From NCBI RefSeq assembly GCF_000316625.1, contig NC_019676.1:5722501-5786500 (forward strand): DNA of 64,000 nt. The letters are read 5' to 3'. The notes below the pieces were generated by a model. The model did not search any database and had not been told where the DNA came from. It saw nothing but the letters and a program-made list of their open reading frames with translations. Below are positions 3,334 through 64,000 of this stretch, one piece after another; position 1 is the first letter of the stretch; every line of letters begins with the position of its first letter. Source of the stretch: Nostoc sp. PCC 7107 (GTDB lineage Bacteria; Cyanobacteriota; Cyanobacteriia; Cyanobacteriales; Nostocaceae). A program made the translations under genes and the position numbers.

Positions 3334-4062
3334 ATGGATAAATTAGAAAAACTTGAAATTGCCTTAGCCAAAAATCAACACTTGCAATTTCTCAAAAATA
3401 TCTTGCCTGAGACTATCAAATTCATCGGATTAATGCAACAGGAGGGCAATCTCCTAGGAATTAATCAGTCAGCGTTAAATTTTTGTGGATTGACTAGCAG
3501 CGATGTACTGGGTAAACCTTTATGGGAAGCTTGCTGGTGGCATAACTCTCAGGCAGCCCAAGAAGCCATAAAAATAGCCGTTGCTTGTGCTGCCGCAGGT
3601 GAATCTGTACATTACGAAGTTGAAATATTAGGGGCAGGCGATCGCTTATTAACCTTTAATTTTTTCATTAAGCCGATCACTAATCAACAAGGACAAATTA
3701 TTTTTTTAATTTTGCCAGGCCAAAATCTGCCTGACTCGCAAACTGGTTATGATCAATCTGCTGCTTCATTACCGCATCACTCGCGCCTTGATGGTCAAGT
3801 AAAGATTTGTCCAACAGACCAAGGTAGCCACTACAAATTTACTGTTGACGATGATGAACCTGGTATTGCCCCAGAATATCAGCAGAAAGTGTTTAGCATC
3901 TTCCAAACTTTAACAGCCCGCGATCGCCAGGAAAACACAGGCATTGGATTGGCGATCGGGAAAAAAATTGTGGAAACAGAAGGCGGTACGATCAGTTTAG
4001 ATTCAAACTCTGCTATCGGCAGTAGTTTTCACTTCATTTGGAAGAAGCAATCAGAAAAGTAA
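3334..4062 (+). CDS. PAS protein with residual histidine-kinase ATPase domain, internally deleted
   Basis: The ATG at 3334 gives 242 aa; an in-frame TTG lies at 3310. Residues about 20-130 look like a PAS domain (LLGINQSALNFCGLTSSDVLGKPLWEA). The last about 75 residues match only the end of a HATPase_c domain, with a G1-like box (DDDEPGIAPEYQ) and a G2 box (NTGIGLAIGKKIVE). The dimerisation helix with the phospho-accepting His and the N box are absent, and the protein jumps from PAS linker to G1 box. The usual DNGPGI is altered to DDDEPGI. It therefore looks like a sensor kinase that suffered an internal deletion while keeping its frame. It may be a decaying gene or a sensor-only protein; autophosphorylation is not expected. 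Confidence 0.7.
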   Translation: MDKLEKLEIALAKNQHLQFLKNILPETIKFIGLMQQEGNLLGINQSALNFCGLTSSDVLGKPLWEACWWHNSQAAQEAIKIAVACAAAGESVHYEVEILGAGDRLLTFNFFIKPITNQQGQIIFLILPGQNLPDSQTGYDQSAASLPHHSRLDGQVKICPTDQGSHYKFTVDDDEPGIAPEYQQKVFSIFQTLTARDRQENTGIGLAIGKKIVETEGGTISLDSNSAIGSSFHFIWKKQSEK

Positions 4063-4644
4063 AACTGCTTAAGCTGAGGGGGCAGAATATTTGTTTACAA
4101 ATCTCACTAATGGCTGAGGACAGGCATTAACATGCTCATTTACAATAATAGTTAGCTTAATCAGGCTTTTTTTGTTGATGATTATACAGTTATTAATTAC
4201 TAATTTTGAAAATATCATAAGTAATTAAATGCTAATAATCAGATTTATTTTAATTAGTGATTTATTTGCCAAAAACAAAGTTTCCATTCATTTCATAAAA
4301 ACATGTTAGTAAGAGTCATTAATATATTATTTAGTGGAGGACGATGAAGTTGATATGGAAAGTGTGTGAACCACCTTAATTCACTAAAAATTGATAGGAG
4401 ATATGTACAACAGAGGAGGTAATAAATATAAAGCCAGCTAAAATAATTGAAGATTGAGAACCTTCTGCAAGATAATTCCCAAATCGGGATATTATTAATG
4501 AATAGACAAATGTCCCTAAGATATAATATTTTGTTAAATTTCTATATCCAAACATTTAACTCAACTCTCAAACTTTTTATTTGGATAGCTTGAAAATAAA
4601 AATGATATACATCAAATCGCATTGGACAGCGAAAATAAAAGCAA
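4063..4644. other. Intergenic region, AT-rich
   Basis: About 580 nt without a convincing reading frame on either strand and without a clear hairpin terminator. It presumably holds the promoter of the receiver-histidine kinase gene at 4645, but I see no confident -35/-10 pair. Confidence 0.5.
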
Positions 4645-5979
4645 ATGGAAGAAACGCTGAGAATTTTGGTTGTAGACGATGATGAAGTAGACCGGATGGC
4701 AGTACGCCGCGCCTTGATACAAGCAGGTGTCAAAATGGAACTGTCGGAGGCTGGTAATGGCCATGAAGCACTACTCGCTTTGACAACTACCACATTTAAC
4801 TGTGTTTTCCTCGATTATCGCCTACCTGATCAAGATGGCTTAACACTGATTCACAGGGTACACGCATCGGAAATCAAAGTTCCTTTAGTTGTTTTGACAG
4901 CACAAGGAGATGAACAAATTGCTGTAGAATTGATGAAAGCTGGTGCTACAGACTATCTTTCTAAATCACGCGTATCTTCAGAAACATTGGCACAAGTTTT
5001 ACGCAATGCTATGCGAGTATATAGTGCCGAAATGCAAGCAAATTTAGCACTCCAACAGTTAAAAGAAAGTCACGAGCAACTCATCCGCAAAAATCACGAA
5101 CTCGAAAGACAACGGCAACAAATTCAACTGCAAAACTTCAAGTTAATCGAAGCATCAAGACTAAAAACGCAATTTTTAGCTACGATGTCTCATGAATTGC
5201 GAACACCAATGAATGCGATTATTGGATTTTCGCAAATATTATTGCGGCCAAAATTTGGTCAACTAACACCTCAACAAACCGATATGGTTGAGAGAATTTT
5301 GAATAACGGCAAGCATTTATTGATGTTATTAAATGAAGTGCTTGACTTTTCTAAATTGGAGGCCGGAAGATTAGAATTAAAGTCCGAATTATTTGATTTA
5401 ACGAAAATAGTCAATGCAACTGTTACCGAGATGCAATCTCTAGCGGAAGCTAAAAAATTAGCTTTGCAAATAGAGATAAATTTAGAAAATCCTTGGGTAT
5501 TTAACGATTCAATACGTGTACGCCAAATATTAGTCAATTTGCTATCAAATGCGATTAAGTTTACCGAAACAGGTTCTATTGCGGTAGAAATCAAAGAACT
5601 TCCTGATAGTCGGATAGAGATCGCAGTTCGTGATACAGGTATTGGGATAGCACCTAAAGACTTTCAACACATTTTTGAAGCCTTTCGCCAAGTCGATCAA
5701 AGCCTGACGCGGAAATATCCGGGTACAGGATTGGGTTTAGCCATTGTCGATTCCTTAGTCAGGATGATGCGTGGCACAATCTTTATCGAGAGCGAATTAG
5801 GAGTTGGTTCGATGTTTAAAGTTGAACTACCACGACAAATATTATCCCAAGATGCAGCCGGAAACATCCCGGCTTTAAATGTTGATGGTGAAAATATTTT
5901 TTTCTCGGCTCATAACCCCCATCAATCTTCTCCTCAATCCCGTCGCTCATCGATGAGGTATCCTCACCTAAAACTATAA
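4645..5979 (+). CDS. Receiver-histidine kinase (hybrid, N-terminal receiver)
   Basis: 444 aa. Residues 1-125 are a receiver (D11-D12-D13 acidic pocket, D57 in VFLDYRLPDQDG, Lys in YLSKSRV). A coiled coil rich in Gln and Glu (about 130-175) leads to a HisKA domain with H183 in the H box (MSHELRTPMNA) and a HATPase_c domain with N box (LSNAIKFT), G1 (DTGIGIA) and G2 (GTGLGLAI). The receiver-first order, without membrane segments or sensor domain, is typical of cytosolic phosphorelay intermediates in cyanobacteria. The gene after it starts 26 nt downstream and encodes a protein of the same architecture, so the two probably form an operon. The C-terminal about 45 residues are Ser/Pro-rich and not part of any domain I recognise. 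Confidence 0.9.
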   Translation: MEETLRILVVDDDEVDRMAVRRALIQAGVKMELSEAGNGHEALLALTTTTFNCVFLDYRLPDQDGLTLIHRVHASEIKVPLVVLTAQGDEQIAVELMKAGATDYLSKSRVSSETLAQVLRNAMRVYSAEMQANLALQQLKESHEQLIRKNHELERQRQQIQLQNFKLIEASRLKTQFLATMSHELRTPMNAIIGFSQILLRPKFGQLTPQQTDMVERILNNGKHLLMLLNEVLDFSKLEAGRLELKSELFDLTKIVNATVTEMQSLAEAKKLALQIEINLENPWVFNDSIRVRQILVNLLSNAIKFTETGSIAVEIKELPDSRIEIAVRDTGIGIAPKDFQHIFEAFRQVDQSLTRKYPGTGLGLAIVDSLVRMMRGTIFIESELGVGSMFKVELPRQILSQDAAGNIPALNVDGENIFFSAHNPHQSSPQSRRSSMRYPHLKL

Positions 5980-6005
5980 ATCCCTAGCACAAAAGTAGAT
6001 TAATC

Positions 6006-7148
6006 ATGTCTGTAGTGGAAAAGCCTAAAATTGATCGGATTCTTGCTGTTGATGACACTAAAGATAACCTGATTTTAGTTCAAACGATTTTAGAAAGTGA
6101 AGGTTATCAAATTGATTTAGTTTCCGACGGTAAATCAGCTTTAAAATATGTTGAACAATCTCCGCCTGATTTAATTCTGCTTGATGTGATGATGCCAGGG
6201 ATGGACGGTTATGAAGTTACCCGTCGCATTCGTCAGAACCCAGAAATTAAAAGTTATATTCCCATTCTGCTAATCACCGCCTTTCATGAATCGAGTGTTG
6301 TGGAAGGCCTTGACAATGGTGCTGATGATTTTATTCGCAAACCTTTTGATACAGATGAACTCTTAGCGAGAGTGCGATCGCTTTTGCGACTCAAGCACAG
6401 TTTAGACGAACAGCAAAAAATGGCTCGCCAACGAGAAGACTTTGTATCTCGTCTCACCCATGATTTACGTACCCCCTTAGTAGCGGCTGATCGAATGCTG
6501 GGTTTGTTTCAAGACGAAACATTCTGCAAAATTTCGCCAGAAATGAAACAAGCGATTTCTGTCATGATTCGCAGCAACCAAAACTTAATGCAAATGGTCA
6601 ATACCTTGCTAGAAGTTTATCGTTTAGAAGCCGGGAAAAAAACCTTTAACGATGAAGTTTGCAACTTACCAGAAATAGTTCAAGAAGTAGTCAGCGAATT
6701 ATCACCCCTAACTAGTGAGAAAAATTTATATGTAGAAGTAGACACCAGTGCTTTAGCGTTAAATCCCACAGATCCTGGTATTATCATGGGTGATGCTTTA
6801 GAACTACGTCGGGTGTTCAATAACCTCCTTGGTAACGCCATCAAATTTACCGATACAGGCGGGATAACAATTCGCTTCTCAGAAGAAACAAACAACCTTC
6901 AAGGTAAAACTTGGGTCATCATTGCAATTGAAGATACAGGTTATGGTATCGCCCCAGAAGACCAAGTGAGCATATTTGAGCGATTTCGTCAAGGCAGAAA
7001 TAAGCGATCTGGTAGTGGTTTAGGGCTGCATCTCTCCTACAGAATTGCCGAAGCACACGGTGGTAATATTACAGTTACCTCTGAACTAGGTAAAGGCAGT
7101 GTGTTTACAGTACGACTACCAAAAAGTCTTGAAGAAATTAGAGAGTAA
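6006..7148 (+). CDS. Receiver-histidine kinase
   Basis: 380 aa with a receiver at residues 10-128 (D16-D17, phospho-acceptor D60 in LLDVMMPGMDG, Lys in IRKPFD), then HisKA with H152 (RLTHDLRTPL) and HATPase_c with N box (LLGNAIKFT), G1 (EDTGYGIAPED) and G2 (GSGLGLHLSY). No transmembrane segment or PAS/GAF sensor is present, so input probably arrives through phosphorylation of its receiver or protein contacts. It is 26 nt downstream of the related kinase at 4645 and converges, with only 9 nt between stop codons, on a single-domain receiver gene. These features suggest a local phosphorelay, but the partners are inferred from position only. Confidence 0.9.
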   Translation: MSVVEKPKIDRILAVDDTKDNLILVQTILESEGYQIDLVSDGKSALKYVEQSPPDLILLDVMMPGMDGYEVTRRIRQNPEIKSYIPILLITAFHESSVVEGLDNGADDFIRKPFDTDELLARVRSLLRLKHSLDEQQKMARQREDFVSRLTHDLRTPLVAADRMLGLFQDETFCKISPEMKQAISVMIRSNQNLMQMVNTLLEVYRLEAGKKTFNDEVCNLPEIVQEVVSELSPLTSEKNLYVEVDTSALALNPTDPGIIMGDALELRRVFNNLLGNAIKFTDTGGITIRFSEETNNLQGKTWVIIAIEDTGYGIAPEDQVSIFERFRQGRNKRSGSGLGLHLSYRIAEAHGGNITVTSELGKGSVFTVRLPKSLEEIRE

Positions 7149-7157
7149 TGAATTGCC

Positions 7158-7673
7158 TTAATCCTGACACAGTTTATAACTAGAATGCGGCTCTAGTTTT
7201 CCCCTTAGCAGACGGCGCACAACCGTTTCTAAATCCTCAATTAAGAATGGTTTGCTGATATAGTCATCAAATCCAGCCTGAAGAATGCGTTCTCGATCTT
7301 CTCTGGTGGCTAAAGCTGTAACCGCAAGTACGGGAATTTTGTAAGTTAGTGAATCGTTCTTAAGATAACGGACAACTTCAATCCCGCTGAGACTAGGTAA
7401 CAAAATATCTAGCATGATCAAGTCTGGCTGATACTCTTTAGCTACCAAAAACGTTGAGGAACTGTCTGATTGACAGATGAATTGACAGCCTAGCGACTCA
7501 AGAGCATAACTAATTAGCAGGAGATTATCATCATTATCTTCCACTGCCAAAATTAAAGGCTTCTGAGAGTTCTGCTGCTTGCCATCACTGATGAATGAAT
7601 GTGCTAAGTACATCTTTTCTCCAGAAAAATCAATGGGGATTTCTCGTCGTTTTTGATATGGCAGACGAACCAT
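7158..7673 (-). CDS. Single-domain response regulator (CheY-like)
   Basis: 171 aa. A 35-residue N-terminal extension of no clear type precedes one receiver domain: acidic residues in AVEDNDD, phospho-acceptor D89 in LIMLDILLPSLSG, Thr in AVTAL and Lys in YISKPF. No output domain follows; the last about 15 residues are a short tail. Such proteins usually act by protein-protein contact or as phosphate shuttles. Its 3' end nearly touches that of the kinase at 6006, on the opposite strand. An internal ATG 20 codons in (MYLAHSF) is a possible alternative start. Confidence 0.85.
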   Translation of the reverse strand: MVRLPYQKRREIPIDFSGEKMYLAHSFISDGKQQNSQKPLILAVEDNDDNLLLISYALESLGCQFICQSDSSSTFLVAKEYQPDLIMLDILLPSLSGIEVVRYLKNDSLTYKIPVLAVTALATREDRERILQAGFDDYISKPFLIEDLETVVRRLLRGKLEPHSSYKLCQD

Positions 7674-54196: not shown

Positions 54197-54443
54197 AGAA
54201 ATTTGGGGTTCAGGATTTCCGATTGTATACTCATTATCTCAAGTACATTCTCCAGCGATAACCTCTACAATCTGGAATAGCTTGGGATAAGTGATGGCTG
54301 AAACACTGACGTTTTGCCTAACGCTGAAGTTTCACGTAAATTTTAAATCATCATCGTCTGATGCTGATTTTGGACACAAGCGATCGCTCTTTGTATCGGG
54401 ATGTTATCATGACTTAGGAACATATTCGCATTTCTCAATACCT

Positions 54444-54485
54444 GGAGAGGTGGCAGAGTGGTTGAATGCGGCGCACTCGAAATGC
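54444..54485 (+). pseudogene. tRNA-Ser(CGA) gene truncated by element integration
   Basis: GGAGAGGTGGCAGAGTGG and the following bases are the 5' half of a class-II serine tRNA: acceptor strand, D arm and anticodon loop CTCGAAA (anticodon CGA). After ATGC at 54482-54485 the tRNA sequence ends; no variable arm, T arm or 3' acceptor strand follows. The break falls in the 3' side of the anticodon stem, a known type of attachment site, and a tyrosine-recombinase gene starts 81 nt on. Confidence 0.85.
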
Positions 54486-54566
54486 TAATTTTGATACATT
54501 CTAACATTTCAGTATAAGACTTCTAGCCAGTTAAATAAAGGGCATCACCTTAGATTAGACGTTTTG

Positions 54567-55769
54567 ATGTCTGAGGTGAAAACCGTAATGTTACTTAGGG
54601 CCAAAAAGGGTAGTGTAACTATAAATGCTAAATCCGGTAAGCTTCGTATTGTCTTACCACGTAACATTGGCGACGGGAAACAGCATTACATTTACACAGG
54701 TTTTGACGACACAGTTAAGAACCGTAAAAAGGTTCAAATGGTTGCATTGCAGATTGAGACAGACATCGAAGATAACTGTCTTGATTGCACTTTAGACAAA
54801 TATCGAACGATGCTGGGGGTTTTTAGAGGACAGCAACGACTACAAATTATTCCTAAAGCACCTAACCTAAAGCAGTTGTGGGCTAAATACTGCGAGTTTA
54901 AACAGCCTCAAGTCTCTGCATCAACCTTCAATCAGGATTTTTTGGGAAGTTACGCCAAAGCCATAAATAATTTACCTACCAATGAAATCAAGGATGCGAT
55001 CGCAATCAGAGATCATTTAATCCAAACTTACCCGCCATACACAGCGAAGCGATATCTTACTCAATTTAATGCTTGCTGTAAGTGGGCCGTTAAATCAAAA
55101 TTAACCGCCAGCAATCCATTTGATGGATTGACTGTTGACATCAAGGTTAAGCGTTGGGACACAAGCAAAATTGACCCCTTCACCCTGGCAGAGCGTGATG
55201 CTATCATTCAGGCTTTTGAACAACATCCTCTCTATATCGGCTATACCAATTTTGTCAGGTTTTTATTTTTTACTGGTTGCCGCATTGGGGAAGCGATCGC
55301 TTTGCAATGGAAACACATCAATATTGATTGCACAGAAATTTACTTTTGCGAGTCTTATAGTTTTCACGGGCGCAAGGAAACCAAGACGGGGGTAAATCGT
55401 AAGTTCCCTTGCAACGAACAATTACGGGCTTTTTTACTCTCTGCCAGGGAACATAGCCCTACCCCAGAGAAACTTGTATTCCCGGCTCTTGGTGGCGGAG
55501 AGATTAAGGCTAACAGTTTCACGGGCGTTGTTTGGCGCGGCGGAGTAAGTCACGGTGTGAAAACTCCGGGCATTGTCACCCAACTCGTTACAGAAGGTAA
55601 GGTTTCAAGATACCGCCCCGTCTATAACACTCGGCATACTTTTATCAGTTTATGTCTGGAGCGCGGCGTTAGTGTTCAGAGGATTGCTCGGTGGGTTGGT
55701 AACAGCCCAGAGGTTATTTACAAGCATTACGCCGGGGTTTTAGGGGATGCTACAGTTCCAGAACTTTAA
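54567..55769 (+). CDS. Tyrosine recombinase/integrase
   Basis: The ATG at 54567 gives 400 aa (a TTG precedes it directly). An N-terminal SAM-like core-binding domain (about 105-200: AKYCEFKQPQVSASTFNQDF, ERDHLIQTYPPYTAKRYL-like) leads to the catalytic domain: Arg I in TGCRIGEAIALQWKHI, a Lys in the beta-hairpin region (GRKETKTGVNRKFP), the box II segment YNTRHTFISL with Tyr in place of the usual first His, Trp in ARWVGNS and the nucleophile Tyr in YKHYAG near the C-terminus. It is the first gene of the element next to the truncated tRNA and should catalyse its integration. Excision partners are not visible. Confidence 0.92.
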   Translation: MSEVKTVMLLRAKKGSVTINAKSGKLRIVLPRNIGDGKQHYIYTGFDDTVKNRKKVQMVALQIETDIEDNCLDCTLDKYRTMLGVFRGQQRLQIIPKAPNLKQLWAKYCEFKQPQVSASTFNQDFLGSYAKAINNLPTNEIKDAIAIRDHLIQTYPPYTAKRYLTQFNACCKWAVKSKLTASNPFDGLTVDIKVKRWDTSKIDPFTLAERDAIIQAFEQHPLYIGYTNFVRFLFFTGCRIGEAIALQWKHINIDCTEIYFCESYSFHGRKETKTGVNRKFPCNEQLRAFLLSAREHSPTPEKLVFPALGGGEIKANSFTGVVWRGGVSHGVKTPGIVTQLVTEGKVSRYRPVYNTRHTFISLCLERGVSVQRIARWVGNSPEVIYKHYAGVLGDATVPEL

Positions 55770-55882
55770 TTTAAGGATTTAAGAGAAATATTTTACGCAC
55801 GTAAAAAAATAACCTTCCTTAATTTAAGGATTTAAGAGAAATATTTTACGTACGTAAAAAAATAATTTTCCTTAATTTAAAG
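55766..55882. repeat. Tandem 53-bp repeats (iteron-like)
   Basis: Two 53-bp units (55766-55818 and 55819-55871) differ at three positions, followed by an 11-nt start of a third. Each begins TTAATTTAAGGATTTAAGAG and contains a palindromic TTTTACGTACGTAAAA (one base altered in unit 1). The first unit overlaps the integrase stop codon. Confidence 0.9.
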
Positions 55883-56056
55883 TATAAAAATAAACTTATA
55901 TTTTAACTCTAAGGATTCTTTAGGCTATTTAAGTCTATTTTAGGCTAAAACTTAAAAATCAGTCATAGACCGCATTTGACGGCGTAATTACCACACACAA
56001 TCTAGTTTTTTTGTGCTATATTTTTAAGTAGCTACTGAGTTCTTGATATTACATCA

Positions 56057-56212
56057 ATGGATAACAAAAGAGACACTGTAATTAGATTGCGCGTTAATCC
56101 AAATGAACGCCAAATAGTTCAGCAAGCTGCCCAGGCTAAAGGAATAACAATTAGTGATTTAGTCCGGCAAAACGTTGGACTGCCAATGTTGGGAAAAATA
56201 AACGCTAGTTAG
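56057..56212 (+). CDS. Ribbon-helix-helix (CopG/MobC-like) small protein
   Basis: 51 aa from ATG 56057 to TAG 56210-56212. The sequence begins with a strand (TVIRLRVNPNE) followed by two helices (RQIVQQAAQAKGITISDLV), the exact build of ribbon-helix-helix DNA-binding proteins, and resembles the N-terminal part of plasmid MobC-type or antitoxin-like proteins (VRQNVGLP at the end). It probably binds DNA as a dimer and may autoregulate or control replication. A 13-bp direct repeat lies about 70 nt upstream of it and again just before the replication gene. A strong terminator follows at 56234. Confidence 0.75.
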   Translation: MDNKRDTVIRLRVNPNERQIVQQAAQAKGITISDLVRQNVGLPMLGKINAS

Positions 56213-56233
56213 GAATTTTTCGTAGAAACAAAA

Positions 56234-56267
56234 ATAAAGCTTTCTAGTACCACCTAGAAAGCTTTAT
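56234..56267 (+). terminator. Hairpin terminator after the RHH gene
   Basis: ATAAAGCTTTCTAG (56234-56247) pairs perfectly with CTAGAAAGCTTTAT (56254-56267) around a 6-nt loop; a T-rich run follows at 56275-56285. It separates the RHH transcript from the replication gene. Confidence 0.85.
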
Positions 56268-56373
56268 ATCAAGTTTCTTTTTTTTAAACTCACCTAATCA
56301 ACACTTGCTTTGGAGATGGCTTCTGTTGACGGAAAGTTCACTTATAACAACGCCATGACGGCGTAATTTATCT

Positions 56374-59300
56374 ATGAATTATCGTATCGAAAAAAATAAC
56401 GAACTGCAACCATCTTCTTACTTTAATTTTAACACAGTCTCAACGTTAGACAGTGTAAAGATTTCAGTTCATCCAACGATACAGCAATTATTTGCCCTTG
56501 GTTACGAAGTTGGCGATCGCGTAGTTGGAAGAAATCTGTGCGTCCACAAAGATAAGAGAAGAAATAAAGATTGGTCTGGGACGCTAACGAAAAATAATAT
56601 CGTTATTCAAGAATACGTTTGGAAGTTCCACAAGATAGTCTTAAACGACGAAATTCACGAAGATGGCTTGAGTTGGCTCGAAGAACAGAACCACGGTGAA
56701 AGACAAATCTACTTTAACGTTAACGGTGGACGAACAACAAACGAAGTAGGTGGATGGCGCTCCTTATTTTTTGAGGAAGATGACGGAACTTTTCAAGAAC
56801 AACAAGCCAAAATTGACGCTATTCCTATTCCTCCGTCGGTTCAAGTGCGTACTAGAAAATCAAAACATACTTACTTTAGCGTTTGGGCTGATGAGACAGA
56901 AAATATCGAGGATTGGTCAGCAAATCAGGAATTAATAGCTTATTACATGGGGTCTGATCCATCTTTGAAAGATGCCCCGCGTCCCATGCGTTTAGCTGGG
57001 TTTGATCACGTTAAAGTAGTCAATGGAGAGGTTGAGTATGTTCCTTGTGTCCTTGAAGTTTGCGCCCTTAATAGGTTTTACTCTGTTGCGGACGTTTTAG
57101 AGGCTTTTGAGTCCTACGCCAAAAATAACGGAATTAAGCCTTTTAGTAAAGAAAGATTTAAGGGCTACCAATACGTCAACAGTAAATTACGACAAAAAGA
57201 GACGGGGCATATTTATGACCATCCGTCATTTGATAAAGGCTTCTTTAGAATTTGTGAAGATTCGGAAGTTACTAATCATTTAGCTAGATGCAAACGTTGG
57301 GCCGGGCTTTGTGAGAAGCGTTATAAAGGTGAAGATTGCGCTGACCCTGAAACCGCCTGGACAGAAGAAGTTAATAGAGTCAAAGAAAAGGTTAAAGCTG
57401 AATACGGTGAAAAATTAATTCCAGCTAAGACAGATAACTGCACCCCAGTGTTATTATCCTTAGCCGGAAAATATCTTGAGGGCTTTAATTACAATGGACG
57501 CGCCGAGTATGCTACCGCTAAGTGTCCAGTTCATGGTGGAACTTCAATCGATAGTTTGCACATTCATAGAACAAGTGGGAATTTCGTTTGTCATAGTGGA
57601 TGCGATAAACACGAAATTGAAAAAAAAATAAGAGATTTAGCTAAGGATTCTGGTGATGAGCGGTGGAATTGGCAATTCTGGAACGGTCAAGAGTCTATCA
57701 TTAGTGAGCGAAATGACTTTGAACCAATAAACCTCAATAAATTAACAATCCGTCCGGGATGGCATCACATTACTGATTGTTCAATAAAAAAACCTTGGGG
57801 TTTGATTTACGATTCAAGGATTTTAGAAAAAATCCCCTCCGAAGCAATTCTTATTCTTAAAGCTCCGATGGGCGCGGGTAAAACAGAGCTTGTTAATGTT
57901 TTAATTAACGAAATATACCGCAATTCTAGAGTTGTTAGTATTACTCCCACAATCGCACTAAATGAAGTATTAGGAAATAGACTCAAAATCGAAACAAGAA
58001 ATGAGATGGAAAGTTTAGGAGTTAACCCTGCTTTTAGTTCTAGAATTGGCGTTGTATGTCCTTCTCTATATAAATTATTAGGACGTTCTTATAACGGGCA
58101 TAGCATTGCGTTGTTTGACGAAAATAGACAATCGTCACAGTTTCTATTTCAATCTAAAGAATGTGATACTAATTATTCACCGCGATCGCAAAGTATAAGG
58201 GCATTAAATGAAGTCTGCAAAAACTCAGATATTATCGTCGTTAGCGATGCTTATATCACTGATGTTGAGGTTGATTACGTTACTAATTTGCGCCCTGATT
58301 TACCAGTTTACGTCCTGGAAATTCCTACTTACGCACGGGAGAGAGAAATTTGGGAAATTACGGACGAAGCTAAAATTTATGAGTTAATTGACCAATTATT
58401 ATCTGAAGGGCAAAGTTTAATTATTCCGTGCGATTCTCAAAAAACTGGTGAGGCTCTCGATGAAGTTTATAACACTAAATCAATTGAGGAGCGATATCGA
58501 GAGAAAGGTTTTAAAGCTTTCCGTCTTGACTGCGAAACTAAGGAAGGAAGAGAGCAAAAGTTGTTTTTAAATAATCCAACCGAATACGTTAAGGCGCATC
58601 CAGAAATAAGGTTGTTTATCTACAGCCCTACGTTAGGGTCAGGAGCTTCTATCGAAGATGGACATTTTGATGCAATGGTAGCGATAAATACCCATCTACC
58701 ATCTACCGATTTTATGCAACAGACGGGGAGATATAGACCAGCTATTCCCCTTTACTATTGGGCTAGTGGCGACAAGCCGAATAAAAACAATTGGTCTAAA
58801 TCCTTCTATCCGTCAAGTCACAAAAAAGCTTTTTTTGATAGCGTTGACCGACTCAAGGAAATGTTGGCAAAGAAAATGTTGGAAATTGCATTAGCAGAAA
58901 CTCCTGGGAATGACTTAATTTCGGCAACCGATAAACTATCACAGATGGCGCGGGAAGGCATGGAAGGACAAAGCCCTGGATTAGATTTAATCTGTAATCA
59001 ACGCGCTAGACATAATTATCTAAGTTGCAAGCGCCGGGACAAATTAAGACAACAGTTCTTAAGCGATGGATTCTCTGTTAAATCTTTAGATGCGGAAGAC
59101 GAAATAATTGACGACACTCCGAAAGAATTAAATAAAAACGCTAAAGATTTAATCATGCAACGAAGGGCGGTTGCTGTAATCAAAGCCCCTTTAATTAGTG
59201 AAGCGGAAGGCAAAAAACTCTTAAATAAACGAGTTTTAAAACCAGAAGAACGTGCTAAGGCAGAGAAGTACAAGTTTAATAAAATGCTTCCCGGCTTTTT

Positions 59301-59952
59301 AGACTCCTTGACCGAAGGTGACGCGATCGAGTTTTACTACAAAAATCTAAAAGACCGGGGGCAGTGGGTAAGCTCTGTTTTTTCGCGGTGGCGCTGGGAG
59401 AATAAGGAACTGCTCAAAGCCAAGGATCTTAAAAACTTAGAATTTTTATTACAGTGCTTTAAGGATAGTGGGGTTGACAGCCCTGGCGACTTAGACAAAT
59501 TGCGATCGCCCTATTTCAAGTTCATTGAAGAAATTGGCTTTTTTAACGAGTTTGCGTTAGGTAGTCAGTTTACACTCGGAAAAGTTATTCAATGGGCTTT
59601 TAAGCTCAAATCCGAGGCGGATATAGAGGAATTACTGTCTTATAGCGGACTAAAAGATAAAGATGCGACTAAAGCTCAACGCGATGCGATCGCCAAGAAA
59701 TTTATTAAGCCCTTACCCGCCAGATATAGACGAGAACTAGAGAAATATTTAGGCATCATTCTCTCTAGCCACCCGAAGACTATTAAGTATCTTACTCGCA
59801 GTGTTGGTAATGTCTTGCGTCGGTTTGGGTTTGATTTGTCTCGTGGGGAACGAGCGGGGGGGAATGAACAATTACGAATTTACAAAGTAATGGAGCGGGA
59901 TAACGTACTACAAAAAAAACTACAGAACCCGCCTAGAAACCATCATTTTTGA
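56374..59952 (+). CDS. Replication protein: archaeo-eukaryotic primase fused to helicase (CyRepA-like)
   Basis: 1192 aa. Residues about 95-250 look like an archaeo-eukaryotic primase: acidic metal-binding E134-E135-D136-D137, K164-H165 in TRKSKHTYF and PRPMRLAGF. A zinc-binding motif follows (C384, H387, C406, C410). From about 490 a superfamily-2-type helicase starts: Walker A PMGAGKTE (K503), a Walker-B-like LFDENRQ, and motif VI-like segments (YSPTLGSGASIED, then FMQQTGRYRPA). The C-terminal about 350 residues are helical and unassigned. The whole resembles the large replication proteins of cyanobacterial plasmids (CyRepA1 type). In an integrated element this points to autonomous replication after excision. 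Two iteron-like repeat regions flank the gene block. Confidence 0.82.
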   Translation: MNYRIEKNNELQPSSYFNFNTVSTLDSVKISVHPTIQQLFALGYEVGDRVVGRNLCVHKDKRRNKDWSGTLTKNNIVIQEYVWKFHKIVLNDEIHEDGLSWLEEQNHGERQIYFNVNGGRTTNEVGGWRSLFFEEDDGTFQEQQAKIDAIPIPPSVQVRTRKSKHTYFSVWADETENIEDWSANQELIAYYMGSDPSLKDAPRPMRLAGFDHVKVVNGEVEYVPCVLEVCALNRFYSVADVLEAFESYAKNNGIKPFSKERFKGYQYVNSKLRQKETGHIYDHPSFDKGFFRICEDSEVTNHLARCKRWAGLCEKRYKGEDCADPETAWTEEVNRVKEKVKAEYGEKLIPAKTDNCTPVLLSLAGKYLEGFNYNGRAEYATAKCPVHGGTSIDSLHIHRTSGNFVCHSGCDKHEIEKKIRDLAKDSGDERWNWQFWNGQESIISERNDFEPINLNKLTIRPGWHHITDCSIKKPWGLIYDSRILEKIPSEAILILKAPMGAGKTELVNVLINEIYRNSRVVSITPTIALNEVLGNRLKIETRNEMESLGVNPAFSSRIGVVCPSLYKLLGRSYNGHSIALFDENRQSSQFLFQSKECDTNYSPRSQSIRALNEVCKNSDIIVVSDAYITDVEVDYVTNLRPDLPVYVLEIPTYAREREIWEITDEAKIYELIDQLLSEGQSLIIPCDSQKTGEALDEVYNTKSIEERYREKGFKAFRLDCETKEGREQKLFLNNPTEYVKAHPEIRLFIYSPTLGSGASIEDGHFDAMVAINTHLPSTDFMQQTGRYRPAIPLYYWASGDKPNKNNWSKSFYPSSHKKAFFDSVDRLKEMLAKKMLEIALAETPGNDLISATDKLSQMAREGMEGQSPGLDLICNQRARHNYLSCKRRDKLRQQFLSDGFSVKSLDAEDEIIDDTPKELNKNAKDLIMQRRAVAVIKAPLISEAEGKKLLNKRVLKPEERAKAEKYKFNKMLPGFLDSLTEGDAIEFYYKNLKDRGQWVSSVFSRWRWENKELLKAKDLKNLEFLLQCFKDSGVDSPGDLDKLRSPYFKFIEEIGFFNEFALGSQFTLGKVIQWAFKLKSEADIEELLSYSGLKDKDATKAQRDAIAKKFIKPLPARYRRELEKYLGIILSSHPKTIKYLTRSVGNVLRRFGFDLSRGERAGGNEQLRIYKVMERDNVLQKKLQNPPRNHHF

Positions 59953-59992
59953 CGATTTTACAAAAACGGGGGTTTCAAAGGCTGAAAACCTT

Positions 59993-60457
59993 ATGGTTGA
60001 GCCAAAAAACCCTGGGCAGATCAAAAACCCCCTGTCTATATACCCCACACATACCATCTACACAGACTTAACGCCTTACACAGAGCGGGTTTCACTCTCA
60101 AAAACACCCGATTTTGAACACCCCTTTGTCCCCGTACTACAAAACCCCACAAACCCCCCCTCAGACGCGGCTCTATATCAAGATTTAATGAAACGAGACT
60201 CGTTAAAGCGCATAGCGGAGGAATTAAATTTATGCACGTCTGTTTTTGATGTCAGTAAGTTATTTAGGCTGTTTAACAGCTATCCAGTGGATGTAATAAA
60301 AGAAGCTATCAACCATGCCCCACGCGAGTCCCAAGAGACAGCTAAGTATTGGGTATCTCGTATGGGGAGGTTTGGTCAATCTTGGCAAATTCTCCCCCCG
60401 ATCCCGCCAGTTAACTCCTGCCAAGCGGGGGCTGAAATAAACTCCTTATCTTGGTAA
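59993..60457 (+). CDS. Hypothetical protein downstream of rep
   Basis: 154 aa, ATG at 59993, 40 nt after the replication gene, so probably cotranscribed. The first about 60 residues are Pro/Thr-rich and probably disordered. The middle (YQDLMKRDSLKRIAEELNL, KLFRLFNSYPVDVIKEAIN, ETAKYWVSRMGRF) is helical and looks like a small DNA- or protein-binding domain. I recognise no family. The position right after rep suggests an accessory replication or partition role, but this is only context. Confidence 0.6.
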   Translation: MVEPKNPGQIKNPLSIYPTHTIYTDLTPYTERVSLSKTPDFEHPFVPVLQNPTNPPSDAALYQDLMKRDSLKRIAEELNLCTSVFDVSKLFRLFNSYPVDVIKEAINHAPRESQETAKYWVSRMGRFGQSWQILPPIPPVNSCQAGAEINSLSW

Positions 60458-60712
60458 AAATTAAAATAAATCCTTAAATCCTTAAATTAAGAATTAACTA
60501 ATTAAATTAAGGATTTAATTTTAATTAAACGCCCGGACTTAAATTATTTTTTTAATTTAAGTCCCTTAATTTTTAATTTAATTAATTTTTGCATCAATTT
60601 TTTTTGATGCGTAAGTAGTACATAAAAAGTTAAGTAGGTATTAAAGTTTGTTTATAATATAGATAGTTACCTTGATGGGACTTAATCAAATAACTAAAAT
60701 TAAATAAAAATT
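60458..60712. promoter_or_regulatory. AT-rich spacer with inverted iteron copy and promoter-like box
   Basis: This 255-nt stretch is almost pure A/T. At 60473-60491 it holds CTTAAATCCTTAAATTAAG, the exact reverse complement of the 19-nt core at 55818-55836 in the tandem repeats. A TATAAT box at 60653-60658, about 55 nt before the next gene, may be its promoter. Confidence 0.6.
60591..60610 (+). terminator. Small hairpin
   Basis: GCATCAA (60591-60597) pairs with TTGATGC (60604-60610) around TTTTTT. It may end the rep transcript, although the T run lies in the loop and not after the stem. Confidence 0.4.
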
Positions 60713-61276
60713 ATGACCGATTTAGTTTTAAATAATAGTATTCCTTGGGAATATCAAAAAGGTATTGACACACCGAAAAGTTGGGAGGCATTCTGTGTTT
60801 ACCGTGATATGGGTGTCAATCGAACCCTAATGGGGGTATCTAGGGTTCTAAAAAAGCGAATCGAACTTATTAGCCGCTGGAGTAAAAAGGGGAATTGGGG
60901 CGATCGCGTCCTTGGTTATGATTTAGAGAATGAAAAAATTAAGCGCGAGGTAAATGAGCGCGAACGCCTTGTGCAACATAGAAATAAAATTATTCAGTAC
61001 AGGGAAGCGATAGAAGATTTAGGATGGATACAGTTAGACGTTGCATCTAAATGTCTTGATATTTGCAATCGTGCTTTAAAAAAATATCAATCCGAAGATA
61101 AAGAATTGAAACCAATTGATGTAAAGGCTTTGTCTAGTGCGGGTGTTAGTGTGGCGGAAATCGGGAGTAGGCTGCTTGCTGAAAGTTTGGGTATTAACAA
61201 ACTTTTAGATAGCTTAGAGGTTTGGGACATTTCCGAAGATGAAGACGTTATTGATATTGGTGCAAAAACAGTATAA
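60713..61276 (+). CDS. Terminase-small-subunit-like DNA-binding protein
   Basis: 187 aa. The N-terminus resembles the small terminase subunits and related helix-turn-helix proteins of phages: PWEYQKGIDTPKSWEAFCVY, RDMGVNRTLMGVSRVLKK and LISRWSKKGNWGDRVLGYD follow the common 'PWE...AF..YRDMG..R....VA......W....W..R...YD' order. A long helix rich in Glu, Lys and Arg follows (EREVNERERLVQHRN-like), then an acidic C-terminus (SEDEDVIDIG). Small terminase subunits recognise the packaging site of phage DNA. No large terminase gene follows within the window, so packaging by a helper's terminase or a gene further right is possible. The call is by pattern only. Confidence 0.6.
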   Translation: MTDLVLNNSIPWEYQKGIDTPKSWEAFCVYRDMGVNRTLMGVSRVLKKRIELISRWSKKGNWGDRVLGYDLENEKIKREVNERERLVQHRNKIIQYREAIEDLGWIQLDVASKCLDICNRALKKYQSEDKELKPIDVKALSSAGVSVAEIGSRLLAESLGINKLLDSLEVWDISEDEDVIDIGAKTV

Positions 61277-61317
61277 AATATTACTTACATAGCCAACTTT
61301 CTTTAAAAAGTCTTTTT

Positions 61318-61367
61318 AACCCCGAACTCCTACCAACCCAGGCTAATTTACTATGCCGGGGTTTTTT
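61318..61367 (+). terminator. Rho-independent terminator
   Basis: AACCCCG (61318-61324) pairs with CGGGGTT (61357-61363) around a 32-nt loop, followed by a run of T. It ends the terminase-like gene's transcript before the tape-measure-like gene. Confidence 0.65.
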
Positions 61368-61418
61368 ATTTTTAGGCTTAAAATATAAAAAGGAGTTAAA
61401 TTTTATACTAAGTTTATT

Positions 61419-64000
61419 ATGGAATTACCAAAGTTAGTTGTAGAGTTAGTCGGCGACTACTCCCAACTCTTAGATGATATCAACGAAGCGCGAAAAGAAG
61501 CATTAAAGCAAGCCAAATTAATTGAAAGAGATTTTGTAATTCGCCCCAAATTAGCTTTTAACGCCGCAGAAATAAGAACAACGACTCAAGGTATTTCCCA
61601 AACATTTCAAGAATCTCTAAAGTCCCAGAAAATAGATATTACGCCAGCATTAACATTTAATCAAAATACTGTTCGTAACCTGGGACGACAAGTATCACAA
61701 GGTTTAGCACAGGGCATTAATTCAGAGGCGAGGGGAGTAAAAAAAGCGTCTAGTGATTTAGCAGGATTAACTATTGACGAAACTAAGCGGAAGTTAAAAA
61801 TTAAATCCCCTTCTCAAGAGTTTCGAGATATTGGTAAAAGTATTGTTGACGGACTGACGCAAGGGCTTGGTATCGGGGGAGCGTTAACCCTTACGGGGGC
61901 TATTTCTGGGTTAATTACTGGAATAATTAACGCCGCCCGTTCGACTGTCCAAACTGGACTTAATTTCACAGGCGACTCAATTAATAAATTTAGTGACTTA
62001 AGAGCTTTTGAAGCTCAATTAAAACTTATCGAAGGTTCCGAAAACTCCCTTAAATTTGTTAGGGGAGAAAGCGATCGCCTAAGCCTATCATTAACGAAAG
62101 CACGGCAAGGGTATGTAGGTTTAGCGGCCGCTGCTAGAGGCACTAAATTACAGGACGACGTTAAAGATATATTTTCGTCCTTATCTACTGCTACAAGAGT
62201 TTATAACCTCTCTAATGAACAATACCAAGGTGCATTATTAGCAAATCAGCAAATAATTAGTAAAAACAAAGTCAGTTCCGAAGAATTGGTTCAACAACTT
62301 GGCGAACGTTTACCGGGGGCTGTTCAAGTCGCTGCCAGGGCTTTAGGTATAACAACCGCCCAACTAGATAAAATCCTTAGTACGGGTCAGTTAACAGCTA
62401 ACGTATTTCTCCCCCGTTTCGCTGCCCAACTTAAAAAAGAATTGGGCGCGGGAGTTCAAGAAGCTTCTAATAACTCAACAGCATCATTAACGCGACTACA
62501 AAACCAAGTCATATCCTTGCAGGAATCACTGGGACAGTCAATTGAGCCTGGGGTAATTGCTGGACTTAATTTTATTCAGCAAGTTTTGACAGACTTAAAT
62601 CAAGCAGGTTTATTTAATGAATTAAATAAGGGAGCTTTAGATTTTAGCGAATATTTAAAACAAAATCCCCAAATAGCAAAAGAGACTGCTAAGGCGATCG
62701 CAGAATTAGCGAAGGATTCCATTAAACTAGCAGCGGAAGGGGCGAAATTTTTACTGGATTATTTAAAAGAAAATCCCGATATCATACGCAAGTCTGCGGA
62801 TGCGATGAGTAGTTTTACTAGTGGTATTAAAGGCGCAGTAATATCAGCTAAAGAATTAATTCAGCCACTAAAAGATGCTTTTGACTTCTTAGTTGGAGTA
62901 GAAAGTAAGCTGAAAAATTCTCTAAAGAGCGTAGCTCAAGATACTCAAAAAAATACCCCCACCGTAACTAACATTGACCAAGTATCACCAGTGTTACGCC
63001 CATTTGTAGGCATTTCTCAAGCACTAGGTTTAAATAAAGAAATTGCCCATAGCCCTATCAGGGGCGTTAACTTTGAACAACTTCTAAAGTATGTTCCTAC
63101 ACGGCAGCAAGGATTTTATGGAGTAAGAGACGGTGGCAGGAGGCAGCATTCAAAAGTTGATTTTGATTCTAGGGTAGGTGCTGGTGAAGGTGCGATCGCC
63201 CAAGCTATATATGGAGGTCAAGCAACCTATAGACCATTTACTAATACTAGTGCCGGGGTTTTTGTAAAAACTCTTGACCAACAAGGGCGGGAAATTGTTG
63301 TCGAGTACGGACATTTGAAACTTAACGATGTACGTCAACTCTTTGGTAACAGGAACCAAATAAAAATAAATCCAGGTCAAGCTTTAGGTCGAGTTACTAA
63401 AGATGCTCTTAGTTCTGGCCCACATTTAGACTTTGGAATTAGAGTTAACGGGCAATATGTTGACCCTCAAAAGTATTTGCGTGAACTTGTTAATGGAACT
63501 AGAAATTTACAAAAGTCTGCAATTGCACAAGCGCAAACTTACGGGCCGCCTTTGCCAACTTCTCAGCAATTAGCGCAAATAGCCCAATATAAAAAAGCGA
63601 TCGCTAGTTATTACGGGCGGTCAGATGGTTTTCACGGGAAGCCTACAGCCAGCGGCGCAATCTTTAATGCTGATGCTTTTACGGTCGCTCATAAAACCTT
63701 ACCCTTTGGCACTAAAGTAGAATTTCGCAATCCTCAAACTGGTGTAACTGCCATTGGTACTATTAACGACCGTGGCCCATTCATTAAAGGCAGAGAGTTT
63801 GATTTAAGCGAGGCGTTAGCCCGTAAGCTAGGAACGCTAAACTCAAACTTAACTAAGCCAAATGTTGAATACAGAATTATCACTTCATCGGTTTCCCAAA
63901 ATTTAACTAATTCGCCAAAATCCTCAGTTTCCCCACAACAGCAACCCCCAGAGATTAGAGCAATTTTACAGGGACAACAAGAACGCGATCGCGTTGCTAG
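61419..64000 (+). CDS. Tape-measure-like protein with M23 and RlpA-like domains, C-terminus beyond window
   Basis: From the ATG at 61419 the frame stays open to the window end (860 codons). Residues 1-130 are helical; a Gly-rich hydrophobic stretch (LGIGGALTLTGAISGLITG) lies near 148-166. Residues about 180-450 follow the N-terminal tape-measure pattern (LPGAVQVAARALGITTAQLD, then LDKILSTGQLTANVF, LQNQVISLQESLGQSIEPG). Residues about 560-690 match M23 peptidases: H577 and D581 (HSKVD), GHLKL with H632, and GPHLDF with H669, where Asp 671 replaces the second His of the HxH motif. Residues 728-810 match RlpA double-psi barrels (FHGKPTASG, AHKTLPFGTKVEF, NDRGPF with D784). The protein probably sets tail length and opens the cell wall during DNA entry. 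An AAGGAG lies about 24 nt before the ATG, rather far. Confidence 0.75.
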   Translation, partial: MELPKLVVELVGDYSQLLDDINEARKEALKQAKLIERDFVIRPKLAFNAAEIRTTTQGISQTFQESLKSQKIDITPALTFNQNTVRNLGRQVSQGLAQGINSEARGVKKASSDLAGLTIDETKRKLKIKSPSQEFRDIGKSIVDGLTQGLGIGGALTLTGAISGLITGIINAARSTVQTGLNFTGDSINKFSDLRAFEAQLKLIEGSENSLKFVRGESDRLSLSLTKARQGYVGLAAAARGTKLQDDVKDIFSSLSTATRVYNLSNEQYQGALLANQQIISKNKVSSEELVQQLGERLPGAVQVAARALGITTAQLDKILSTGQLTANVFLPRFAAQLKKELGAGVQEASNNSTASLTRLQNQVISLQESLGQSIEPGVIAGLNFIQQVLTDLNQAGLFNELNKGALDFSEYLKQNPQIAKETAKAIAELAKDSIKLAAEGAKFLLDYLKENPDIIRKSADAMSSFTSGIKGAVISAKELIQPLKDAFDFLVGVESKLKNSLKSVAQDTQKNTPTVTNIDQVSPVLRPFVGISQALGLNKEIAHSPIRGVNFEQLLKYVPTRQQGFYGVRDGGRRQHSKVDFDSRVGAGEGAIAQAIYGGQATYRPFTNTSAGVFVKTLDQQGREIVVEYGHLKLNDVRQLFGNRNQIKINPGQALGRVTKDALSSGPHLDFGIRVNGQYVDPQKYLRELVNGTRNLQKSAIAQAQTYGPPLPTSQQLAQIAQYKKAIASYYGRSDGFHGKPTASGAIFNADAFTVAHKTLPFGTKVEFRNPQTGVTAIGTINDRGPFIKGREFDLSEALARKLGTLNSNLTKPNVEYRIITSSVSQNLTNSPKSSVSPQQQPPEIRAILQGQQERDRVA

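Follow-up and report, generated by a model that had tools for sequence, protein, structure and literature searches.

What kind of element begins inside a serine tRNA gene, has the replication genes of a plasmid, and carries genes for phage packaging and a phage tail? The question is raised by a 64,000-nt stretch of the Nostoc sp. PCC 7107 genome (6.33 Mb, one contig), hereafter the window (G000:C1:5722501-5786500, where G000 is the genome of the window and the other G numbers are related genomes compared with it). A sequence-only reading of the window had noted a truncated tRNA-Ser gene followed, on one strand, by genes for a tyrosine recombinase, an RHH protein, a primase-helicase, a terminase small subunit (TerS) and a tape measure protein (TMP), a gene order that our analysis confirmed at the coordinates given below. 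Its view of an integrative element that combines plasmid-type replication with phage genes is supported by the element's ends, an empty site in relatives and protein family matches. The interesting part of the element is its set of TerS and TMP without heads. Like the earlier reading, we lean slightly towards a phage satellite, specifically one with a plasmid backbone, which would redirect the packaging of a siphophage by its own TerS and build chimeric tails with its own TMP.

A closed element at a tRNA-Ser gene

At the left end of the element lies a displaced 42-nt fragment from the 5′ end of tRNA-Ser(CGA) (54444-54485, forward strand), which stops in the 3′ strand of the anticodon stem without the 3′ half there. 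ARAGORN called a tRNA-Lys as the sole tRNA of the window, in line with the earlier observation that the 3′ half is not restored at this end. The fragment belongs to a 96-bp direct repeat, of which the left copy (54390-54485, forward strand) consists of host upstream sequence and these first 42 nt. The right copy lies at genome positions 5801081-5801176, and its 99% identity (E 8.5e-42) excludes chance. Parts of the repeat match three other places in the genome (31-42 bp at 88-94%), with a further match inside the integrase gene. The sequence was extended to the right, as had been proposed, and there the right copy of the repeat continues into a complete tRNA-Ser(CGA) at genome 5801134-5801222 (L008 11134-11222). 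From repeat to repeat, the element measures 24,191 bp (24.2 kb). The tRNA gene is rebuilt at this far end with a 5′ half and upstream sequence that the element supplies. With a whole tRNA already standing there, nothing is missing for excision to restore, contrary to the sequence-only reading; the element swaps the 5′ half and the upstream sequence. Promoter scans at both element ends found no match to the consensus; in the upstream alignment, 9/9 rows have the motif TATCAT at 33-37 nt before the tRNA.

The empty site, sought in ten other genomes of the same genus, is present in five (G001, G004, G005, G008, G009), in which the same left flank runs into a complete tRNA-Ser(CGA). G006 holds a related element at the same site, with an integrase 88% identical to the window's after the same tRNA fragment; G002, G003, G007 and G010 are uninformative, their left-flank match ending short of the tRNA. 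When joined, the flanks of the window's element match the G004 empty site over 1038 bp, gapless and at 96.9%, spanning the junction. A fragment at one end, an intact tRNA at the other, an integrase between them and an empty site in relatives together characterise a tRNA island with 5′ replacement. A broken tRNA or a deletion breakpoint is ruled out by the complete tRNA at the right end and the empty site in relatives. From its sequence, the element is real, closed and well bounded.

TerS and TMP as a conserved pair

The TerS gene (60713..61276, forward strand; 187 aa) matches PHROG 6299 at 5.1e-19, and its product is 33.5% identical over 80% to the TerS of Aphanizomenon phage CL131. The TMP gene follows on the same strand, its first part occupying 61419..64000 and the remainder continuing to genome 5788487. 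The full protein of 1522 aa matches TMP_3 (2.3e-23) and contains M23 peptidase and RlpA/DPBB domains. A profile of the four TMPs described below matched the PDB tape measure chain 8vjh_Q at 2.2e-26.

A search of 217 family genomes (1e-30, two candidates scored per genome) found TMP matches in 12. Besides the window's copy, the full-length ones are in G006, G205 and G217, the last in two pieces; the nine other matches of the family are partial matches, all nine to longer open frames of 1685-3414 aa. A named genome collection yielded one TMP locus, in Desmonostoc muscorum FACHB-395, which is the same as G217. Nine elements, clustered by gene content, contain TerS and TMP in four cases (G000, G006, G205, G217), all with the 5′ fragment layout of the window's element. 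Neither gene occurs in the five related elements, three of which have the 5′ layout (G101, G014, G433) and two another (G063, G127). The four TerS/TMP elements measure 24.2, 23.6, 31.0 and 23.5 kb, respectively, and use two tRNA genes. In all of them the integrase comes first and the replication gene second, TerS and TMP are next, and a P-loop ATPase follows on the opposite strand. Each TerS is of PHROG 6299 and stands immediately before the TMP, at gaps of 2-142 bp. Each TMP is open over its full length and co-linear with the others (1516, 1522, 1535 and 1580 aa), with mutual identities of 38-62% and a conserved C-terminal end.

Selection was estimated by NG86 dN/dS on pairs among the four elements. 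For the TMP, G000/G006 is the sole pair of six with a measurable dS (dN 0.318, dS 2.47), and its codon positions 1, 2 and 3 differ by 32, 22 and 54%. The TMP looks constrained by purifying selection, on the strength of one measurable pair with dS near saturation. TerS gave a dS in three of six pairs (1.7 to 3.8, with dN of 0.60 to 0.67) and none in the other three. Between the same G000 and G006 elements, the integrase has a dN of 0.067 and a dS of 0.71, and a ParM-like gene a dN of 0.058 and a dS of 0.715. These distances set the history of the TMP apart from that of the two genes near the element's ends, the integrase and the ParM-like gene.

Directly after the TMP lies a 122-aa open reading frame (ORF; L007:12830-13195, beyond the window), where a minor tail protein is commonly encoded. 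It was considered as such and rejected, having no family match and a structure model (pLDDT 39) too poor for the purpose.

Virion genes without a head

Scans against PHROGs covered ten proteins of the window's element, the sister TerS and others, and 44 further ORFs of at least 85 aa. The 44-ORF scan left out 13 ORFs otherwise assigned (integrases, replication pieces, ParM-like, restriction-modification), and a 120-aa ORF of G006 was scanned over its first 59 aa only. Across the four elements, these scans, which took in a minority of the ORFs below 85 aa, found no capsid, portal, protease, canonical large terminase or tail gene besides the TMP. The 25 ORFs of at least 250 aa encode integrases, replication proteins or pieces of them, TMPs, ATPases, ParM-like proteins, a 375-aa TPR protein, an anti-repressor and two restriction-modification proteins. 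A full prophage is rejected, and so is a phage-plasmid (one option of the sequence-only reading) in the strict sense of plasmid genes plus a complete virion gene set, as the scans found no head genes and the 25 large ORFs are otherwise assigned. The elements combine an integrase, their own replication gene and a packaging gene with no complete virion set, which is the general gene content of a phage satellite. The presence of only two clear phage assembly genes suggests that the element borrows the rest of a virus and swaps in its own parts.

The same gene content might be left by a decaying prophage that has lost its head genes, since TerS and TMP are the sole recognised virion genes. We regard decay as very improbable: across four elements and two tRNA genes, the same two genes are kept and the same ones are absent, although the TMPs are near or at synonymous saturation between elements, and the replication and partition genes are plasmid-like.

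A plasmid backbone

The left half of the element reads forward from the integrase through an RHH protein, the replication protein and a 154-aa protein to TerS and TMP, so that its genes in the window are all on one strand. The tyrosine recombinase (54564..55769, forward strand; 401 aa) matches Phage_integrase at 6.4e-9 and a PHROG integrase at 4e-42. The small RHH protein (56057..56212, forward strand; 51 aa) is NikA-like (PF21983, 2.3e-8). A primase-helicase-like replication protein (56374..59952, forward strand; 1192 aa) is related to CyRepA1 (model match 8.5e-58; PHROG replication 1.7e-23), with 196.7 bits against the CyRepA1 NCBIfam model, 3.3 bits under the curated cut-off of 200. The right half, beyond the window, is mostly reverse. 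It encodes a TPR protein along with small proteins, a P-loop ATPase and its two small neighbours, a 141-aa protein and a ParM-like protein. The last matches a PHROG partition protein (2.8e-24), and the 141-aa protein occupies the position of ParR with no family match. By BLAST, the ParM-like gene is found in G000, G006 and G217. G205 has an actin-like protein in the corresponding position, ALP_N being matched by one of the 44 scanned proteins, which we attribute to G205.

Relatives of the ATPase occur in 110/217 family genomes and in 68 plasmid records, 43 of which are called mobilizable in PLSDB; partition genes are also present on two inspected plasmids bearing such relatives. The ATPases of related elements are 14-36% identical to the window's, whose best PDB sequence matches are assorted P-loop proteins and whose structure model is mixed (mean pLDDT 54.9). 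The G217 ATPase scores above the HerA cut-off of Pfam, and weak matches to coupling-protein models were obtained with others.

These features raise the alternative that the element is an integrative plasmid with acquired phage genes. It would spread through natural uptake or conjugative mobilisation, and its TerS and TMP would be left over from a phage-plasmid ancestor or serve another use. The CyRepA1-related replication gene, the ParM-like gene and the NikA-like RHH protein all suit this explanation, as do the mobilizable plasmids among those with ATPase relatives, the HerA and coupling-protein matches, and the five related elements without TerS or TMP. Opposed to it are a TMP that stays open, of near-constant length and constrained in diverged elements, and a TerS directly before it in 4/4. 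Pfam scans of the element proteins also found no relaxase family, by which an integrative and conjugative or mobilisable element (ICE/IME) would be recognised. On balance, we consider a plasmid with acquired phage genes rather unlikely.

The search for a helper and a proposed mechanism

How might a satellite with these two genes use a phage? Infection by a siphophage, perhaps virulent and distantly related to CL131 as judged from TerS only, would lead the element to excise and replicate. The element's TerS would guide the phage's large terminase and heads onto DNA of the element. The element's TMP would take the place of the phage's, and the resulting chimeric tails would have a length dictated by the element and carry the element's own enzymes for wall entry. 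While no phage infects, the element would stay integrated or persist as a partitioned plasmid, a period in which sister elements would offer anti-phage cargo.

Relatives of TerS among cultured cyanophages are those of siphophages CL131, PSS2 and S-CRES, with 24-34% identity over 79-91% of the length, and a sixth record reaches 47.5% over 32%. CL131 was considered as a named helper and rejected as a distant TerS relative only. Its TMP has 2131 aa, compared with 1522 aa in the window's element, and its tail is reported as 361 nm (PMC6293099). At that ratio, our guess for the tail built on the element's TMP is roughly 260 nm. A helper residing as a prophage was also rejected, as the TerS profile matched 3/388 order genomes: the window's own, G217, and G336 with three weak matches (best 5e-14). 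These 388 genomes are a sample of a larger group, presumably one without G006 and G205, since both have the gene and neither is among the matches. In viral contigs, the single TerS protein found nothing and a TerS alignment found 19 distant loci.

We speculate, more tentatively, that tail piracy arose independently in a cyanobacterial satellite family on a plasmid backbone unlike that of PLE or PICI satellites, which would need no more than TerS and TMP to take over both the packaging and the tail length of a virulent siphophage. Through the two wall-hydrolase domains of its TMP, the satellite may choose its own route into the next filament. The TerS-TMP pair may further be exchanged between backbones as helpers change, a proposal prompted by the G000/G006 dS of about 2.5 in the TMP compared with 0.7 in the integrase and ParM-like genes.

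Cargo genes and a possible role in defence

Sister elements carry anti-phage cargo. In G205, the cargo consists of a type III restriction-modification pair (methyltransferase and restriction enzyme) and a JukA-like protein, both called by PADLOC, together with an anti-repressor. The JukA-like protein is found in both G205 (L134:1895-2554, PADLOC 8.3e-14) and G217 (L136:3580-4230), and the two copies are 85% identical; the TMPs of these elements are 53% identical. In our reading, the 120-aa ORF of the G006 element is possibly toxin-like.

Such cargo lends some weight to a defensive or decoy role, in which TMP and TerS made during infection would poison phage tail assembly and packaging, with the element itself unpackaged. 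Blocking tail assembly is a known defence, exemplified by Rta acting on the TMP of ICP1 (PMC12987554). A poison, however, would need less than a whole TMP of 1.5 kaa that has wall-hydrolase domains and keeps its C-terminal end conserved, and the presence of an own TerS suits a redirection of packaging like that of SaPIs (PMC10690885). We therefore hold a decoy to be improbable.

Several points also weigh against the satellite interpretation itself. No helper, excision, induction or particle has been seen. Its TMP family is rare, with three other full-length copies among the 217 family genomes, and it matches phages over parts only. Identity of the TerS to its relatives in cultured cyanophages is as low as 24-34%, the TMP of CL131 gives no match at 1e-4, and pattern scans of viral contigs found no TMP match. 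Scans against PHROGs and Pfam brought up neither a tail-assembly chaperone nor a baseplate hub. Plasmid life is suggested by the ParM-like gene and the ATPase. The cargo region of the window's own element has no PADLOC match worth naming; its 375-aa cargo protein has none. Lastly, the G217 and G014 ATPases weakly match a PHROG labelled large terminase, at 2.1e-6 and 3.7e-4, respectively. The G217 match is confined to the P-loop region, the ATPases of G000, G205, G006 and G063 have no match to the large-terminase PHROG, and the G217 protein passes the HerA cut-off; we read this kind of hit as a general ATPase match.

Relation to known satellites and plasmids

Near counterparts of the proposed satellite are the PLEs of Vibrio cholerae (PLE1, PLE4, PLE11), which also carry their own TMP. 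PLE11 virions contain the PLE TMP and not that of ICP1, from which it differs by 95 aa, and their tails are about 10 nm shorter (PMC12987554). Removal of tmp cut transduction by about 99.9% in PLE11, 96% in PLE1 and 99% in PLE4 (PMC12987554, Nature 2026). The authors describe PLEs as the first satellites known with their own TMP in chimeric tails (PMC12987554, 2026). PLEs are the satellite system in which such replacement was tested (PMC12987554). The window's element differs in its TerS, plasmid-type replication, ParM-like gene and cyanobacterial host; PLE11 brings a tail-assembly chaperone and hub along with its TMP (PMC12987554), neither of which the PHROGs and Pfam scans found here.

With PICIs and SaPIs, the element shares an integrase, its own replication gene and a TerS without a canonical large terminase, subject to the caveat of the P-loop matches of the G217 and G014 ATPases. 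Unlike them, it has a TMP and a ParM-like gene. An AlpA/Stl-type regulator, which is a PICI trait, gave no match among the scanned proteins, the small ORFs being partly scanned. An own TerS without a large terminase is the way in which some SaPIs redirect helper packaging (PMC10690885). The cf-PICIs resemble the element in taking part of the particle from a helper, and putative tmp genes have been shown for a sample of them (PMC12987554). They differ in encoding heads and both terminase subunits (PMC10690885), none of which was found in the window's element. The CyRepA1 plasmids of cyanobacteria share the helicase part of the replication protein as well as partition and ATPase genes, whereas the window's element falls under the CyRepA1 cut-off, is integrated, and carries TerS and TMP. 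Tycheposons belong to a different host group, the marine picocyanobacteria.

Judged by titles and abstract openings, a literature search on cyanobacteria and phage satellites brought up nothing on satellites of filamentous cyanobacteria. As far as literature searches went, this small family of elements may be undescribed, and it may provide the first satellite candidate of filamentous cyanobacteria. The sequence-only reading had gone further in proposing a type not described: this may hold for the cyanobacterial family, but 5′ tRNA fragments (PMC4383910) and satellite TMPs (PMC12987554) have already been published. If the satellite interpretation is true, a second family, in cyanobacteria, would make tail piracy more general, with TerS and TMP as its minimal version. 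It would also offer a test case for why a satellite needs its own TMP, be it for length, escape from tail-targeting defence or host entry.

Integration layouts among relatives

The integration layout of the element is known, but in the minority. Typically, attP and attB share the 3′ half of a tRNA (PMC10865867), and 5′ tRNA fragments were recorded for 159/3919 islands in Islander (PMC4383910). Expression of a tRNA from an element's promoter is described as seldom seen in bacteria (PMC8371274). As in Islander's islands with a 5′ fragment and with archaeal pTN3-like integrases, the intact tRNA is restored by an element-borne 5′ half and upstream sequence; here, in distinction, both layouts occur among relatives of one integrase group.

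We surveyed 24 integrase loci including the window's, and both ends were readable in 14. Half of these have the 5′ layout, at tRNA-Ser (G000, G006, G101, G217), tRNA-Cys (G014, G205) or tRNA-Gly (G433). Three have an intact tRNA at the integrase end (G063, G127, G344), and in the other four (G092, G200, G216, G270) a tRNA-Cys stands in opposite orientation with its 3′ part repeated. The repeat of the 5′-layout loci takes in 69 nt of the tRNA at G101 and 38-46 nt at the other six, plus 1 to 138 bp of upstream sequence. Where the shared stretch is shortest, it stops in or beside the anticodon loop, which would fit a crossover there. A tree of the 24 integrases requires five layout changes, a figure inflated by entering the ten loci not readable at both ends as 'not 5′'. 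A single origin of the 5′ layout was rejected, as the readable loci by themselves fall in two parts of the tree, with 3′-layout loci inside or beside each.

Within genomes, the repeats are nearly or wholly identical (96 bp at 99% in G000, 129 bp at 100% in G006, 169/169 bp in G217 and 175/176 bp in G205), and between G000 and G006 they are visibly unlike. The elements of these two genomes are similar just inside the right end and switch, near the tRNA, to each host's own upstream sequence. Because the repeats match the resident host and not the sister element, simple integration alone is insufficient; such a match would be expected if the element had lately moved within its species or if its two repeats had undergone gene conversion with each other.

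Replication genes and other loci of the genome

No plasmid relative of the replication protein covers over 80% of its length. The best-covering one is on Nostoc plasmid pNPM9 (L223), at 31% over 51%, and this plasmid is annotated with a protelomerase. In the G006 element, the replication gene is split over several reading frames (L069, about 3488-7633), and TerS and TMP are intact. The 154-aa protein that follows the replication gene in the window (59993..60457, forward strand) has a weak relative in the G006 element, at 28%.

The genome of the window has two more integrase relatives, 41% and 33% identical, at C1:1824056-1825147 and 3557783-3558859, and two more relatives of the plasmid-type ATPase, at C1:3569436-3570263 and 6092557-6094068. 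About 11 kb separates one of these integrases from one of these ATPases, a spacing that suggests a further plasmid-like element integrated in the genome.

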